The notes below the pieces were generated by a model. It saw only the letters and a program-made list of their open reading frames with translations. It had not been told where the DNA came from and ran no database searches. From Clostridiales bacterium (GTDB taxonomy: Bacteria > Bacillota > Clostridia > Lachnospirales > Lachnospiraceae), in assembly GCA_020860715.1 (NCBI GenBank), contig JAJBTU010000003.1:9726-48029 (forward strand): a DNA stretch of 38,304 bases. Reading direction: 5' to 3'. A program made the position numbers and the translations under genes. Positions 7,489-26,391 of this stretch are shown here, piece after piece; positions within the stretch are counted from its first letter, which is position 1; each line of letters begins with the position of its first letter.

Positions 7489-7600
7489 CAAAAATCGTCC
7501 CCCTTACACTTTGTTTATTTCTGTTTATTACAGACCTGATACCGGCAGATATCCGGTCTGGTGCGATCTACAGTCCGCTTCCGGTATTTTCTTCCGTCGC

Positions 7601-8095
7601 TCACAAATCCTTTGGCCCGAAATTCAGCGGCAGCAGCTCTTTCAGCGTATAGCTCTGATAATCCTTCAGGCTGCGTGCCAAAATGATCCGGAAACTCTCC
7701 GGATCACAAAACTCCGCCATCACCTGACGGCAAACGCCGCACGGCGGGGCAAAGCTGTCCAGTTCCATCTCCACATCAGCAGCCGCGCAACGCGCAGCGT
7801 TTTTTGCATCGCAGCTGCGTTCTGCCGCCGAAGCAACGCGACCATCTTTTTCTTTGGAATATCCCCCTACGATCGCAATCTGACGAAAGCTGCGGTACCC
7901 TTCCGATATGGCCTTGAAAAAGGCGGTGCGCTCGGCACAGACGGTCGGCGTGTAGCTTGCGTTCTCGATGTTGCACCCGGAAAAAATCTGCCCGTCCTCC
8001 GTCTCCAGCGCCGCTCCCACGGAAAAATGGGAATATGGAACATACGCGCGCTGCCGCGCCTCAAATGCTTTTTTTATTAATTCCTGATCCTGCAT
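7601..8095 (-). CDS. cdd: cytidine deaminase with an in-frame palindromic-repeat insertion
   Basis: 164 aa, about 30 longer than the usual small tetrameric Cdd. It deaminates (deoxy)cytidine to (deoxy)uridine, feeding pdp next door. The active site is intact: Cys53 and Glu55 in VCAERTAFF, and Cys119/Cys122 in PCGVCRQ bind zinc and perform catalysis. Normally only a few residues separate IAIVGG from the PCGVC motif. Here about 34 extra residues (79-113) intervene, including DAKNAARCAA, a peptide also present in DeoB two genes away. The extra DNA is GC-rich and palindromic (core 7778-7810). Because both flanks fit the family perfectly, I infer an inserted mobile repeat that is translated as a surface loop near the active-site edge. 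Confidence 0.93.
   Translation of the reverse strand: MQDQELIKKAFEARQRAYVPYSHFSVGAALETEDGQIFSGCNIENASYTPTVCAERTAFFKAISEGYRSFRQIAIVGGYSKEKDGRVASAAERSCDAKNAARCAAADVEMELDSFAPPCGVCRQVMAEFCDPESFRIILARSLKDYQSYTLKELLPLNFGPKDL
7778..7830. repeat. palindromic element inside cdd (copy A)
   Basis: The 33-bp core 7778-7810 is identical to 9137-9169 in deoB at 31 of 33 positions (two transitions). It is rich in self-complementary GCAGC/GCTGC and CGCAGC/GCTGCG arms. Both copies are read in the same frame, giving DAKNAARCAA. A 14-base piece (GCAAAAAACGCTGC on the minus strand) recurs in the intergenic element near 26330-26345. Confidence 0.8.
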
Positions 8096-8143
8096 ATCGC
8101 CTTATCTCCTGTTCCATCCCGGCCAATCTGTATCTTCCATATT

Positions 8144-9352
8144 TCATCCCTGGCGCTTTACTTCTTTCCAGAAGCTCCTGCCGTCCAGACTCTCCGGAAT
8201 GCCGAACATCTCCAGGACGGTCGCGGCGATATCCGCAAAACTGCTCCTTGTGCCGATAGAAACACCCGGCCGCACTCTTTTTCCGTACAGAAGCATCGGC
8301 ACATATTCACGCGAGTGATCCGTGCCCGGAAATCCGGGGTCACAGCCATGGTCAGCCGTAATCAGCACAACATCATCGTCATTTAATTTTTCCATCATCT
8401 GCCCCAGCTGCCGGTCAAAGAGCGTTGCTGCCGCGGCGTAGCCGTCGATGTCGTTGCGGTGCCCGTAGAGCATATCAAAATCCACCAGATTTACAAAACA
8501 AAGCCCCGTAAAATCCTCATCCATCAGGGTGATCGTCTTGTTCATCCCGTCTTCATTATCTGAGATCGGTGTTGTATGCGCAATGCCCTGGCCCGCGAAA
8601 ATATCGTTGATCTTTCCAATCCCGTACGTATCAAAGCCGTGCTCCATCAGGCTCACAAGCATCGTACGCTTCGGCGGGATCAATGAAAAATCATGACGGT
8701 TCCTGGTCCTCGTAAAATCGGAAGCAGTATTTCCCACAAAGGGACGGGCGATCACGCGTCCTACGCCGTGCTTCCCCTGCAGGATCGCACGCGCCTTCCG
8801 GCAGTCCTCATACAGTTCCTCAAGAGGAACGACCTCCTCATGCGCCGCAATCTGGAACACACTGTCCGCTGAAGTGTACACGATCAGATCACCGGTCTTC
8901 CTGTGCTCCTCGCCGTAATCGCGGATCACATCCGTGCCGGAATACGGCTTGTTGCAAAGCACGCCTCTTCCGGTCTGCTCCCGGAACGGGGCAAGCACTT
9001 CCTCCGGAAACCCCTCCGGATATACCGGCATCGGCTCCGGCGAGATCATCCCCGCGATCTCCCAGTGCCCGATCGTTGTATCCTTCCCCATCGAACTCTC
9101 CCGCAGACGCCCGTAGGCGGCAATCGGAGATTCCATAGCAGCCGCGCAGCGCGCAGCGTTCTTTGCATCACGGCAGGTCACGCCGTCAATATTAAACATT
9201 CCGAACCGCTCCAGATTCGGCGTATCATAACGTTCTGATTTAACGATCGAAGCCAGCGTATTGGCTCCGACATCCCCGAACAGATCCGCGTCCGGCTCGT
9301 AACCGATACCGAAGCTGTCAAGGACGATAAGAAACACTCGTTTGATATCCAT
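8144..9352 (-). CDS. deoB: phosphopentomutase with a short repeat-derived insertion
   Basis: 402 aa from the ATG at 9352 (GAGGAAGGA upstream); the frame extends 25 codons further but those residues do not fit the family. The Mn-dependent alkaline-phosphatase-fold enzyme interconverts (deoxy)ribose-1-phosphate and -5-phosphate, linking the phosphorylases to central metabolism. Metal-binding and catalytic motifs are present: LIVLDSFGIG, GKDTTIGHWE (phospho-Thr92), ADHGCDPGFPGTDHSREYVP. Between GVTC and ESPIAAYGRL, where relatives have a few variable residues, lies RDAKNAARCAAA (61-72). This is encoded by the same 33-bp repeat core found in cdd. It is just upstream of the active-site Thr, yet all motifs are intact, so the enzyme is probably functional. 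Confidence 0.94.
   Translation of the reverse strand: MDIKRVFLIVLDSFGIGYEPDADLFGDVGANTLASIVKSERYDTPNLERFGMFNIDGVTCRDAKNAARCAAAMESPIAAYGRLRESSMGKDTTIGHWEIAGMISPEPMPVYPEGFPEEVLAPFREQTGRGVLCNKPYSGTDVIRDYGEEHRKTGDLIVYTSADSVFQIAAHEEVVPLEELYEDCRKARAILQGKHGVGRVIARPFVGNTASDFTRTRNRHDFSLIPPKRTMLVSLMEHGFDTYGIGKINDIFAGQGIAHTTPISDNEDGMNKTITLMDEDFTGLCFVNLVDFDMLYGHRNDIDGYAAAATLFDRQLGQMMEKLNDDDVVLITADHGCDPGFPGTDHSREYVPMLLYGKRVRPGVSIGTRSSFADIAATVLEMFGIPESLDGRSFWKEVKRQG
9137..9169. repeat. palindromic element core inside deoB (copy B)
   Basis: Second copy of the 33-bp core seen at 7778-7810 in cdd, in the same orientation and reading frame. Flanking DNA is unrelated between the two genes, so this is transposition or copying rather than gene duplication. 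Confidence 0.8.
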
Positions 9353-9446
9353 GCGACATCCTTCCTCTCTGAACCTGTATGTCTGCCTGACTGAAGCCTT
9401 CACAGGTATCCACCGCAGACCTCTCATTTATACTGCTGCCCTCGAT

Positions 9447-10154
9447 TCAGGCGATCTCCATCGCGACCTTCACCATGTCATTGAAGCTGGTCTGGCGCTC
9501 CTCGGAGGTCGTCTCTTCGCCGGTCACCATGCTGTCTGAGATCGTGCAGATCGCCAGGGCATTCTTTCCGGCGCGGGCCGCGTTCATATAGAGCGCTGCC
9601 GCCTCCATCTCGACCGCCAGTGCTCCCATTTTCTGCCACTTCTCTGTCGTCGGACGGTCGCTGTAAAAGACATCCGCCGAGACCAGATTGCCGACCCGAT
9701 AGTTCACGCCCATCGCCGCTGCCGCCTCGGCCGCGTTTTTCAGCAGTTCATAGGATGCGATCGGTGCGAATGTACCCGGCAGTTCAAACTGCGCCGCATA
9801 GTTGGAATCCGTGCAGGCGCCCATGCCCAGCACCAGATCGCGGATCTTCAGATCCGGCTGCAATGCGCCGGCCGTGCCGATACGGATAATGTTTTCTACA
9901 TTATAAAAATGAAACAGTTCATAAGAATAAATGCCGATCGACGGCATTCCCATGCCGCTCGCCATTACGGATACCTTTTTCCCCTGATACAGGCCGGTAT
10001 AACCATTCACGCCGCGAACGTTGTTTACCAGTACCGCGTCCTCCAGAAACGTCTCCGCTATGTGCTTCGCACGCAGCGGATCTCCCGGCATCAGCACTGT
10101 CCTTGCAAAATCTCCCGGTTCTGCCGCAATGTGCGGGGTAGGTGTCTGGCTCAT
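9447..10154 (-). CDS. deoD: purine-nucleoside phosphorylase (DeoD type)
   Basis: 235 aa from the ATG at 10154. AAGGAGG lies 8 bases before this ATG but only about 2 before the in-frame ATG at 10160, so the later start is preferred. The hexameric enzyme phosphorolyses purine (deoxy)nucleosides. Motifs: VLMPGDPLRAK (phosphate binding), NNVRGVNGYTGLYQGK, IRIGTAGALQ, VEMEAAALY (nucleoside-binding Glu) and TISDS with the catalytic Asp. It is the first gene of the deoD-deoB-cdd-pdp run (gaps of 94, 48 and 112 bases), which gives a complete route from nucleosides to pentose-5-phosphate. Confidence 0.95.
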   Translation of the reverse strand: MSQTPTPHIAAEPGDFARTVLMPGDPLRAKHIAETFLEDAVLVNNVRGVNGYTGLYQGKKVSVMASGMGMPSIGIYSYELFHFYNVENIIRIGTAGALQPDLKIRDLVLGMGACTDSNYAAQFELPGTFAPIASYELLKNAAEAAAAMGVNYRVGNLVSADVFYSDRPTTEKWQKMGALAVEMEAAALYMNAARAGKNALAICTISDSMVTGEETTSEERQTSFNDMVKVAMEIA

Positions 10155-16420: not shown

Positions 16421-16712
16421 GTACGCAAGCGTCCTTCTACGCTTCGCTTCGGTCGGCGCTAAACGGACATCCACTGGATGTCCAGCGCCCTTCCGATAGG
16501 TCACACTATCGGAACTTCGTTCCTCCGTGTGACAAGTTCCAGACCTTCGGTCTGTCACTGACCTATCGGTTCCGAGTACGCAAGCGTCCTCTCCTTCCGA
16601 TAGGTCACACTATCGGAACTTCGTTCCTCCGTGTGACAAGTTCCAGACCTTCGGTCTGTCACTGACCTATCGGTTCCGAGTACGCAAGCGTCCTCTCCTT
16701 CCGATAGGTCAC
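16421..16712. repeat. tandem palindromic repeats, 104-bp period, plus a hairpin element
   Basis: Two identical 104-bp units (16491-16594 and 16595-16698) are followed by a 14-base partial third unit at 16699-16712. Each unit folds as a multi-arm structure: an outer perfect 11-bp stem CCGATAGGTCA/TGACCTATCGG (16493-16503 with 16559-16569 in unit 1) around hairpins GGAAC-TTC-GTTCC and CAGACC-TTC-GGTCTG. Just before unit 1 (16456-16490) is a nested hairpin, arms GGCGCT/AGCGCC around GGACATC/GATGTCC; the same hairpin recurs at 26268-26300. The sequence GTACGCAAGCGTCC occurs three times as a linker. It lies between a minus-strand promoter and the GNAT fusion start, so it is transcribed as the 5' leader. 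Confidence 0.9.
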
Positions 16713-16741
16713 ATTATACACGGCCGTAAAGCAAAAGACAA
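16713..16741 (-). promoter_or_regulatory. promoter of the GNAT/dehydrogenase fusion
   Basis: Minus strand TTGTCT (plus 16736-16741), 17-base spacer, perfect TATAAT (16713-16718). Transcription would start at about 16706, at the edge of the partial repeat unit. Confidence 0.7.
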
Positions 16742-20139: not shown

Positions 20140-21438
20140 CTACAGCACAGACACCGGCACAAGCCAGGTGTTTCTGTTGTATGGAAAGATTTCATCACAC
20201 ATACAAAGCACAATCCCCGGCTGCACATCCAGATGGAACTTATCCAGAACGCCAAAGTTCTTATCCGGATGTGCCGGAGTTTTATTCTTTTTAATCTCGA
20301 TGGGATAGAGCTTATCTCCTTCCACAATCAAAAGATCCAGTTCTTTTTTGTCTGTATCTCTGTAATAATACAAATCCGGGCGTTTCCCCGCATTGTAATA
20401 GCTTTTTACAATTTCCGAAACCACCCAGGTCTCAAAAAAGGCGCCGTCCATGGCCCCGTGTTCAAGCGTTTCTGCATTCGGCCATCTGCAAAGATAAGCA
20501 GCCAGTCCGGTATCCATAAAATAAATCTTTGGTGTCTTCACCAGACGGCTGGTCACATTCGAGTAATAAGGCCGTAAAATATAGACCACACCGGAACGCT
20601 CCAGAATGGAAACCCAGGATTTGGCAGTCGGAGCAGACACACCGATCGCGTTTGCAATCTCATCATAACGCAGCTCGCCGGAAGTCCGCGCCGCGATAAA
20701 TACGAGAAAATCATAAAATGTACTGAGATTTCCTACCTGTGCAAGATCTTTTATATCGCGCTCCAGATACGTATTCACATAATCCATATAGTAGCGCTCA
20801 CGATCCATGTCCATCGCTATCAGCTTTGGCATTCCGCCGCGAAAAATCAATTCGAAAATCTGATGGATATTTTTTAATTTGCCATCTTTCATGCGCTCGC
20901 GCAGCGAATCCAATGAAGGATGAAACAACTGCGCAGGACGCTCCTCCACTTCTGACACCGAAAGGCCCGACAAATCAAATACCGCTACCCGGCCTGCCAA
21001 CGATTCAGATATAGATCCGCCCATCGCGTAGCGATTCTGCATGGGCGGATCGATCTGCCGCCGAGCTTCGCGAGGGGGCGCTTCCATCCGCATCATAGAA
21101 AACTTCTGTGAACCGGTCAGCCAGTATCTGCCGTTCGCATCTTCTCCATCTAAAACCGCCTGATCCACGATTCGCTTCATTTCCAGCAGCAGAGAAGGTA
21201 CGCGCTGAAATTCATCTATCAAAAGCGGTGAACCGTATGTCTCAAAAAACAGCCCCGGATCCTGCTCTGCCAGTCGACGCGCATTCATATCATCCAATGT
21301 GACATATCTTCGTCCGCTTTCACGCAGCTGATTCAGCATCGTTGATTTTCCTACCTGGCGCTGTCCGCACACCATGACAACCGGATAGTACCTCGAAGCT
21401 TCCAGAATCTGTGCTTCTAAATGTCTTTTTATATACAT
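20140..21438 (-). CDS. AAA_14/DUF4143 ATPase with an in-frame hairpin-encoded insertion
   Basis: 432 aa from the ATG at 21438, which has GGAGGA about 11 bases upstream; ATGs at 21459 and 21486 lack such sites. Order: AAA_14 domain with Walker A GQRQVGKST (25-33) and Walker B LLIDEFQR (72-79), then DUF4143 with a C-terminal nuclease-like fold (KKELDLLIVEGDKLYPIEIK). The family is widespread and poorly characterised. In relatives TGSQ.F..M leads almost directly to SESLAGRVA. Here about 27 residues (117-143, RMEAPPREARRQIDPPMQN and on to GGSI) are inserted, encoded by a perfect 11-bp hairpin plus flanks (21014-21090). The flanks match the family, so the protein is otherwise intact. Convergent with the MoxR gene. 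Confidence 0.88.
   Translation of the reverse strand: MYIKRHLEAQILEASRYYPVVMVCGQRQVGKSTMLNQLRESGRRYVTLDDMNARRLAEQDPGLFFETYGSPLLIDEFQRVPSLLLEMKRIVDQAVLDGEDANGRYWLTGSQKFSMMRMEAPPREARRQIDPPMQNRYAMGGSISESLAGRVAVFDLSGLSVSEVEERPAQLFHPSLDSLRERMKDGKLKNIHQIFELIFRGGMPKLIAMDMDRERYYMDYVNTYLERDIKDLAQVGNLSTFYDFLVFIAARTSGELRYDEIANAIGVSAPTAKSWVSILERSGVVYILRPYYSNVTSRLVKTPKIYFMDTGLAAYLCRWPNAETLEHGAMDGAFFETWVVSEIVKSYYNAGKRPDLYYYRDTDKKELDLLIVEGDKLYPIEIKKNKTPAHPDKNFGVLDKFHLDVQPGIVLCMCDEIFPYNRNTWLVPVSVL
21014..21051. repeat. hairpin element inside the DUF4143 gene
   Basis: Perfect 11-bp stem GATCCGCCCAT/ATGGGCGGATC (21014-21024 with 21041-21051). The loop continues into a second short hairpin ATCGC-GTA-GCGAT. The intergenic element at 26353-26388 has the same layout with different but still complementary arms. 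Confidence 0.8.
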
Positions 21439-21613
21439 ATCTGAATTTTCCTCCAGCATCCACTTTTCTGCTTTTTCATTTATCATCTATTTCTGTATTC
21501 CGGTAATTCTAAAATATGATTTTATTTTATTCGCTTCTAGCTATGCTGTCAAGATGCAAGAGCAATAATTGTTTGAATTTCCAGCACTTTGTAACTGAAA
21601 TCATGCTTGTAAA

Positions 21614-26179: not shown

Positions 26180-26391
26180 ATTGCTGCGTGCTTCGCACTC
26201 TCGCATCTCCGCTGCCGCTCCGGTCGGCGAGTATCCCATCCAGAGGATGGGATTCCACCCGGCGAGGGCTAAACGGACATCTACTGGATGTCCAGCGCCC
26301 TAACAACATTCGGAATCCGCTCATTTGAGCAGCGTTTTTTGCTGCGATGCAGGCCGCGCCAATCGCGAAGCGATTTTCAATTGCGCGGCTT
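26180..26391. repeat. string of intergenic palindromic elements (largest copy)
   Basis: Hairpins in order: ATCCCATC/GATGGGAT (about 26233-26252); AGGGC/GCCCT around GGACATC/GATGTCC (26275-26281 with 26287-26293); GCTC-ATTT-GAGC (about 26319-26330); GCAGC/GCTGC (about 26330-26345); and a nested CCGCGC/GCGCGG around ATCGC-GAA-GCGAT (about 26353-26388). The second shares 34 of 35 to 32 of 35 bases with 16456-16490, the fourth a 14-base piece with the cdd insert, and the fifth the layout of the DUF4143 insert. It fills the gap between ecfT and the larA-like gene; no gene is present. Confidence 0.85.

Follow-up and report, generated by a model that had tools for sequence, protein, structure and literature searches.

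The description of the Rickettsia palindromic elements (RPEs) reportedly goes back to Ogata in 2000. According to two reviews, RPEs are small palindromic repeats of 105-146 bp with terminal inverted repeats and a coding frame, which are found in Rickettsia, in frame within unrelated conserved protein genes and also between genes (PMC10969869, PMC2229807). Their effect on the host enzyme is described there as neutral or slightly harmful (PMC10969869, PMC2229807). Small repeats whose open frames are fused in frame to genes are also known as the protein-coding palindromic repeats of Wolbachia and Methanocaldococcus jannaschii and as ERIC, YPAL and Correia, while bacterial MITEs are primarily intergenic and several of them show target duplications (PMC2229807, PMC2996958).

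The cytidine deaminase gene cdd and the phosphopentomutase gene deoB studied here contain parts of a 78-bp element which shares with the RPEs a palindromic sequence with a coding frame that invades unrelated conserved genes. The element works like the RPEs, from which size, structure and host set it apart: it is smaller, has two hairpins and resides in Lachnospiraceae-type genomes, outside Rickettsia. The repeats of Wolbachia and M. jannaschii, ERIC, YPAL and Correia belong to other taxa and are set apart from it by their descriptions. No description of the 78-bp element was found among open-licence papers. NCBIfam includes RPE models, and four insert peptides (33-37 aa) matched none of the NCBIfam models at E ≤ 1. 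The general features of protein-invading palindromic elements are present, namely a dispersed hairpin repeat, in-frame insertions and insert-free orthologues. The reading favoured here, with a probability of about 0.88, is that of a non-autonomous mobile palindromic element that has spread by copying to numerous sites within a genus of Lachnospiraceae type, with tolerance of its peptide and recognition of its hairpins as putative components.

Copies in cdd, deoB and a third gene

The window (the whole stretch of DNA analysed, 38,304 nt) contains two copies in the adjoining cdd and deoB genes and a third in an ATPase frame:

7601..8095, minus strand: cdd, cytidine deaminase, 164 aa (TIGR01354, 140.6 bits, cut-off 113.65; PF00383)
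7778..7834, minus strand: copy of the element in cdd, 57 nt, with the main hairpin and part of the left hairpin, encoding about ASAAERSCDAKNAARCAAA
7778..7810, minus strand: 33-bp core in cdd named by the initial annotation, 31/33 identical to 9137-9169
8144..9352, minus strand: deoB, phosphopentomutase (NF003766, 513 bits, cut-off 256; PDB relatives, e.g., 3m8w), with the start placed by eye at MDIKRV
9137..9169, minus strand: copy in deoB, hairpin half only, DAKNAARCAAA (from the orthologue alignment)
20143..21486, minus strand: AAA_14/DUF4143 ATPase, open frame from stop to stop (Pfam), host of the third copy
21013..21084, minus strand: third copy, a 72-nt full-length variant in frame in the ATPase (EAPPREARRQIDPPMQNRYAMGGS; R1, RF02987, Pfam)

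The cdd and deoB pair is flanked by frames that resemble, by eye, deoA and a purine nucleoside phosphorylase.

The core shared by cdd and deoB, on which the initial annotation was built, is real: 31 of 33 bases agree in the same frame, both copies read DAKNAARCAA and the minus strand is the coding strand. A 20-nt pattern of the core (at most 3 mismatches) has two occurrences in the window, where shuffled sequences give 0.01 on average. The same pattern is found at 16 places of the 2.67-Mb genome, compared with 0 for a reversed-pattern control. At most of the 15 places also found by the model described below, a longer unit encoding ETPPRxASAADRASDAENASRFAGA has the core at its 3′ end. The proposed 33-bp element forms only the 3′ end of a palindromic element whose full unit is 78 bp (26 codons), a family in which the copies of cdd and deoB are incomplete or decayed members. 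The accompanying interpretation, that a protein-invading element had entered variable loops in frame, stands in a modified form, as a 78-bp GA-cis-related family found across a Lachnospiraceae-type genus.

Copies were searched for with R1, a 75-nt model built from 23 aligned copies, 12 from the window's genome and 11 from Lachnospiraceae/Clostridiales MAG contigs. The cdd copy belongs to the alignment of the model (A1), hence its match (7778-7852, 76.9 bits) is by construction. The deoB copy (9139-9176, model positions 36-73, 23.4 bits, E 0.00011) and the third copy (63.2 bits) are both absent from that alignment. The deoB copy is without the 5′ element sequence present in the cdd copy.

Structure of the element

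The consensus of the element, 78 bp in length, is RTG GAAACGCCCCCTCRC-NNNN-GYTCGGCGGCARRTC-GCnnnnnnSA-TGCARAAAACGCTKCGCGTT-TSnnnnnnGC-T. According to the empty sites described below, the inserted unit measures 78 nt, three bases beyond R1 at the left, and tandem arrays have the same period. Each element contains two hairpins, left and main, and the arms of the main hairpin vary among copies yet remain complementary. In an alignment that had been fitted to the model, 278 cells show two-sided changes, the shuffles giving 63.6 ± 5.7, and the paired share of cells is 91.3%, compared with 72.6% for shuffled alignments and 24-48% after sliding of one arm. Two of the five covariation measures were at shuffle level (8 pairs with two-sided change vs 8.0; further pair types, with 24/500 shuffles as high). 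The outer nine pairs of 108 distinct copies comprise 970 cells, 917 of them Watson-Crick, 8 G.T, 13 A.C and 32 other. Because G.T and A.C pairs are both rare, these counts pick no RNA strand, and the choice of a strand by wobble counting (8 vs 13) was rejected. Pairing is weak further inside, at alignment columns 46-48/65-67. Inspection by eye suggests an inner hairpin, AACGC-TKC-GCGTT, and the minimum-energy fold of one copy pairs this inner part differently. As RNA, neither the cdd nor the deoB stretch of the window folds better than its shuffles, of which 38/200 and 112/200 equal or exceed it.

The element also occurs in tandem, as arrays of two to four copies whose arms are similar and whose period is mostly 78 bp, at L190, L242, L249, L259 and L262, as well as at G063:C103:16154-16384 and G000:C31:39775-39918. 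They suggest growth by slippage following insertion.

Copy number and spread

R1, 12 of whose 23 training copies come from the window's own genome, gives 53 matches there at E ≤ 0.1, and 42 at E ≤ 0.001 with stricter filters. It also finds 15 of the 16 core-pattern places, and the sixteenth (L010) looks like a chance match. In a first survey of 60 genomes, 15 of the 36 members of the genus had a match, followed by 7 of 11 additional members. Overall, the genus has matches in 22/47 genomes (16 with 20-86 matches and six with 1-8), counts which are lower bounds because 81 or 150 candidates were scored per genome. Among the 24 genomes from other families of the order, none had an R1 match. Draft genomes were used, many of which had been assembled from metagenomes; those with named records are MAGs, and the records matching the element are Lachnospiraceae/Clostridiales MAGs.

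In two genomes of the genus, G068 and G069, the ten copies examined sit inside a different, longer repeat, and the single match of G034 has similar flanks. Because of this context, G068, G069 and G034 may lack the 78-bp form. The longer repeat (L292-L301) is dispersed, reaches about 510 bp, has inverted ends (CCCGGACGCC...GGCGTCCGGG) and contains a hairpin resembling GA-cis. G068 and G069 have it in opposite orientations at one orthologous site.

REP elements are short extragenic hairpins that occur in many copies and are mobilised by Y1 (RAYT) transposases. The 78-bp element resembles them as a many-copy short hairpin and differs in that REPs are extragenic and that Y1_Tnp does not track copy number here. 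As a candidate mobiliser the Y1 transposase was rejected, being found in 10/16 high-copy genomes vs 14/31 others, with no association. No Y1 transposase match was obtained in 6 of the 16 genomes with at least 20 copies, including the window's genome.

Orthologues with and without the insert

Within the genus, the insert peptide appears in 2/30 aligned Cdd and 4/30 aligned DeoB proteins, the aligned orthologues being the loci returned from 45 genomes with a match. The cdd site is filled in the window's genome (G000) and in G062, and has no insert in G008 and G013, which are 90-91% identical; the edges of the insert were set by aligning these filled and empty genes. Cdd residues 78-112 occupy the place of three residues in 1mq0, and DeoB is nine residues longer than 3m8w around its insert. 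Of the 30 aligned DeoB orthologues, 24 show a short loop at the site, G063 and G026 carry another, longer insert, and the 3′-half copy is common to G000, G062, G008 and G013. This copy adds a net 27 nt relative to orthologues having CCCGGCGTG at the site. Both host proteins are still recognisable, Cdd scoring above the TIGR01354 and NF004064 cut-offs and DeoB above those of NF003766 and TIGR01696. Half copies recur, because ArgJ of G062, G008 and G013 also contains the 3′ half of the element only. In the Cdd of G064, G035, G065 and G010 (L114-L117), long loops are seen at the same place as the insert. Judging from their METD..PSPAERSERDARS-like sequences, those of G035 and G010 may be decayed independent copies of the element.

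The cdd and deoB cores are mutually the best match among 180 copies compared (31/33; next best 29 for cdd and 28 for deoB). Since the two genes are neighbours and the 78-bp tandem arrays show that the unit can multiply locally, gene conversion or slippage between cdd and deoB could be invoked without any mobile element. The initial annotation accordingly spoke of recent and local copying. The data do not establish this: the two copies differ in extent and in species spread, with the deoB insertion in four species and the cdd insertion in two, and about 40 or more further copies lie elsewhere. As a full account, local copying is contradicted by the 53 genome matches and by the empty sites, and it is improbable, being conceivable only as the source of one core.

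Orthologues without the insert, a check proposed by the initial annotation, were found at 11 distinct sites. Each of these has a precise, ungapped empty counterpart in a relative, with a flank identity of 0.86-1.00 over 80 nt. For this comparison, the flanks of 171 copies were joined and compared with fetched loci, among which most copies have no orthologue. The net length is exactly 78 nt at ten sites and 77 at one, which is intergenic. Five of the 11 sites fall in one group of related loci. The site in the HflX gene, outside this group, is filled in G000 and empty in G062, G008 and G013.

No target-site duplication was seen at the 11 empty sites, ten of which add exactly 78 nt, and its absence (78 copies; 11 empty sites) distinguishes the element from classical MITEs. 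A duplication suspected from a -3/+1 base match in the first copies was rejected, as 78 independent copies gave 37 matches against 32.0 expected, with 59/500 shuffles as high. Two of the 64 offset pairs stand out, (-2, +4) with 19 vs 9.2 (0/500 shuffles) and (-5, +4) with 27 vs 17.7 (1/500).

Reading frame and host proteins

Flank frames are concordant in 73 of the 93 independent full-length copies and not in the other 20. The sense frame encoding ETPPRxASAADRASDAENASRFAGA is used by 68 of these 73, a preference with P about 4e-36 when frames are weighted by openness, the weights deriving from copies already sifted by selection. Before homologous sites were removed, 101/120 concordant copies used this frame and 60/180 copies were not concordant (codon statistics, 300-nt flanks). 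Frame +0 is open in 119/123 copies, with a mean charge of -0.2 and 14% bulky residues. The other five frames are open in 44-91 of 123 copies, with charges of +1.6 to +6.4 and 18-33% bulky residues. Among the six frames, the ETPPR peptide thus comes closest to neutral and has the lowest share of bulky residues, although two others are more hydrophilic. The openness of its frame is partly a product of selection, since most of these copies are located in genes. Antisense reading is seen in a few cases, such as L032, in a frame resembling by eye a sugar ABC transporter ATPase.

The hosts are mostly conserved enzymes, unrelated to one another. In the window's genome, Pfam identifies an HflX-type GTPase, NAD synthase (NadE), a class III aminotransferase (ArgD-like), ArgJ, a radical-SAM protein, an Orn/Lys/Arg decarboxylase, RibF, two class I aminoacyl-tRNA synthetases, RsmF, an arylsulfotransferase and a beta-galactosidase. 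A PurF-like host has a weak Pfam match (E 0.02). As judged from the reading frames, many ordinary enzymes probably gain an extra loop of up to 26 residues from in-frame copies, provided that the insert is translated.

A hairpin-forming insert in a conserved enzyme gene might alternatively be skipped by ribosome bypassing or removed from the RNA. This is highly improbable: the net length is a multiple of three at 10/11 empty sites, and skipping would have no need of an open, strongly preferred frame (119/123).

In the mobile-element reading, the element would be copied to many genome sites, adding 26 codons without target duplication. Insertions in the sense frame would be tolerated, as harmless extra surface loops, because the frame is open and the peptide near-neutral and poor in bulky residues. 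Insertions in other orientations or frames would mostly be purged by selection. A putative mobilising enzyme would recognise the hairpins in their folded form, either in single-stranded DNA or in GA-cis RNA.

GA-cis RNA on the opposite strand

The source of the GA-cis RNA family is reportedly a paper by Weinberg in 2017; among open-licence papers, only the Rfam 15 paper was found to deal with it. The Rfam model of this RNA, RF02987, matches the reverse strand of full copies with both hairpins aligned. The coding insertions of the genus are therefore antisense relatives of GA-cis. In eight loci, 12 of 13 matches reach the cut-off of 34.7 bits (37.6-50.5 bits), and the thirteenth scores 31.8. 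The third window copy (21013-21084) is also above the cut-off, with 45.8 bits at G000:C32:30735-30814. Window positions 7500-9500 gave no RF02987 hit at E ≤ 5. The copies in cdd and deoB are too incomplete for Rfam to call them, and their sequences tie them to GA-cis through the 78-bp family.

GA-cis was detected in 6 of 295 genomes sampled from the order, all six in the family of the window's genome (for the listed positives of this family, 14 candidates were scored in each genome), and in none of 14 control genomes. Five genomes of other genera of the family contain nine copies, 1-5 each, which lie between genes or touch the end of the upstream frame. By eye, eight of the nine have a Shine-Dalgarno-like site and a same-strand frame downstream, while the ninth, L276, does not fit. 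These eight (L263, L269, L264, L265, L267, L268, L272 and L274) are directly upstream of genes that include, by eye, ferredoxin-like, FAD-dependent oxidoreductase-like, desulfoferrodoxin-like and XRE-type regulator frames; a shared redox theme is possible. The two-hairpin sequence and structure of GA-cis are the same as those of the element, on the opposite strand. They differ in that the Rfam type of GA-cis is an sRNA gene with 1-5 copies in other genera, mostly upstream of genes, whereas the genus has 20-86 R1 matches per genome in 16 genomes, mostly antisense within coding sequences.

The upstream position of eight of the nine copies, just before a Shine-Dalgarno-like site and a same-strand gene, together with the Rfam type, would fit a genuine cis-regulatory RNA whose in-gene copies are regulatory modules retained for function. 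Such a role is doubtful as an explanation of the genus copies, which lie mostly within coding frames of the opposite strand in unrelated genes and are missing from close relatives at 11 sites. Furthermore, 46 copies are not spanned by any well-scoring frame, and for 6 of these a candidate gene start lies at most 60 nt downstream on the GA-cis strand.

The GA-cis strand could also be transcribed and copied back to DNA, in the manner of a small bacterial SINE-like retroelement, the coding insertions being antisense copies. The opposite strand exceeds the cut-off of a structured-RNA family, with both hairpins and the GA/GA internal loop aligned, and the absence of target-site duplication would agree with this route. 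However, wobbles are few on either strand (8 G.T and 13 A.C of 970 cells), which looks more like complementarity at the DNA level, and this route is considered unlikely, if less so than the regulatory one.

Within the mobile-element reading, it is tentatively proposed, at a little under even odds, that GA-cis is fundamentally mobile DNA, and its role as a cis-regulatory RNA not the whole story or no part of it. The position before genes in other genera would then reflect insertion or later domestication, its two hairpins would be the substrate of the mobilising system, and in one genus it would have adapted to life inside proteins, one strand giving a structured RNA and the other a benign peptide frame.

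Other repeats nearby

A second palindrome is present at window positions 16458-16489 and 26268-26299 (GCTAAACnnnCRTCCACTGGAYGnnnAGCGCC), with covarying trinucleotides (GAA/TTC, GGA/TCC, GAT/ATC). The genome contains it at 12 places, vs 0 in a reversed control, and few of these have a coding frame that scores well. Four loci searched against Rfam gave no hit. The argD gene has an in-frame fusion of this palindrome with the left end of a copy of GA-cis type (DRPLDDQRP), and the same chimera is seen in L222, L230 and L247. Directly after the palindrome at 16458, a 104-nt tandem repeat spans window 16489-16717, with two identical units followed by the beginning of another.

Significance

Published accounts of protein-invading palindromes concern mainly Rickettsia and Wolbachia (PMC10969869, PMC2229807). 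With the element presented here, an Rfam structured-RNA family would be recast as mobile DNA. Loop inserts in predicted proteins of the genus need not represent evolved domains and call for caution. The precise empty and filled sites provide a basis for working out the mobilising enzyme and its target rule. In addition, a large and recently mobile family residing in conserved enzymes would allow in-frame insertion, tolerance and loss to be traced site by site.
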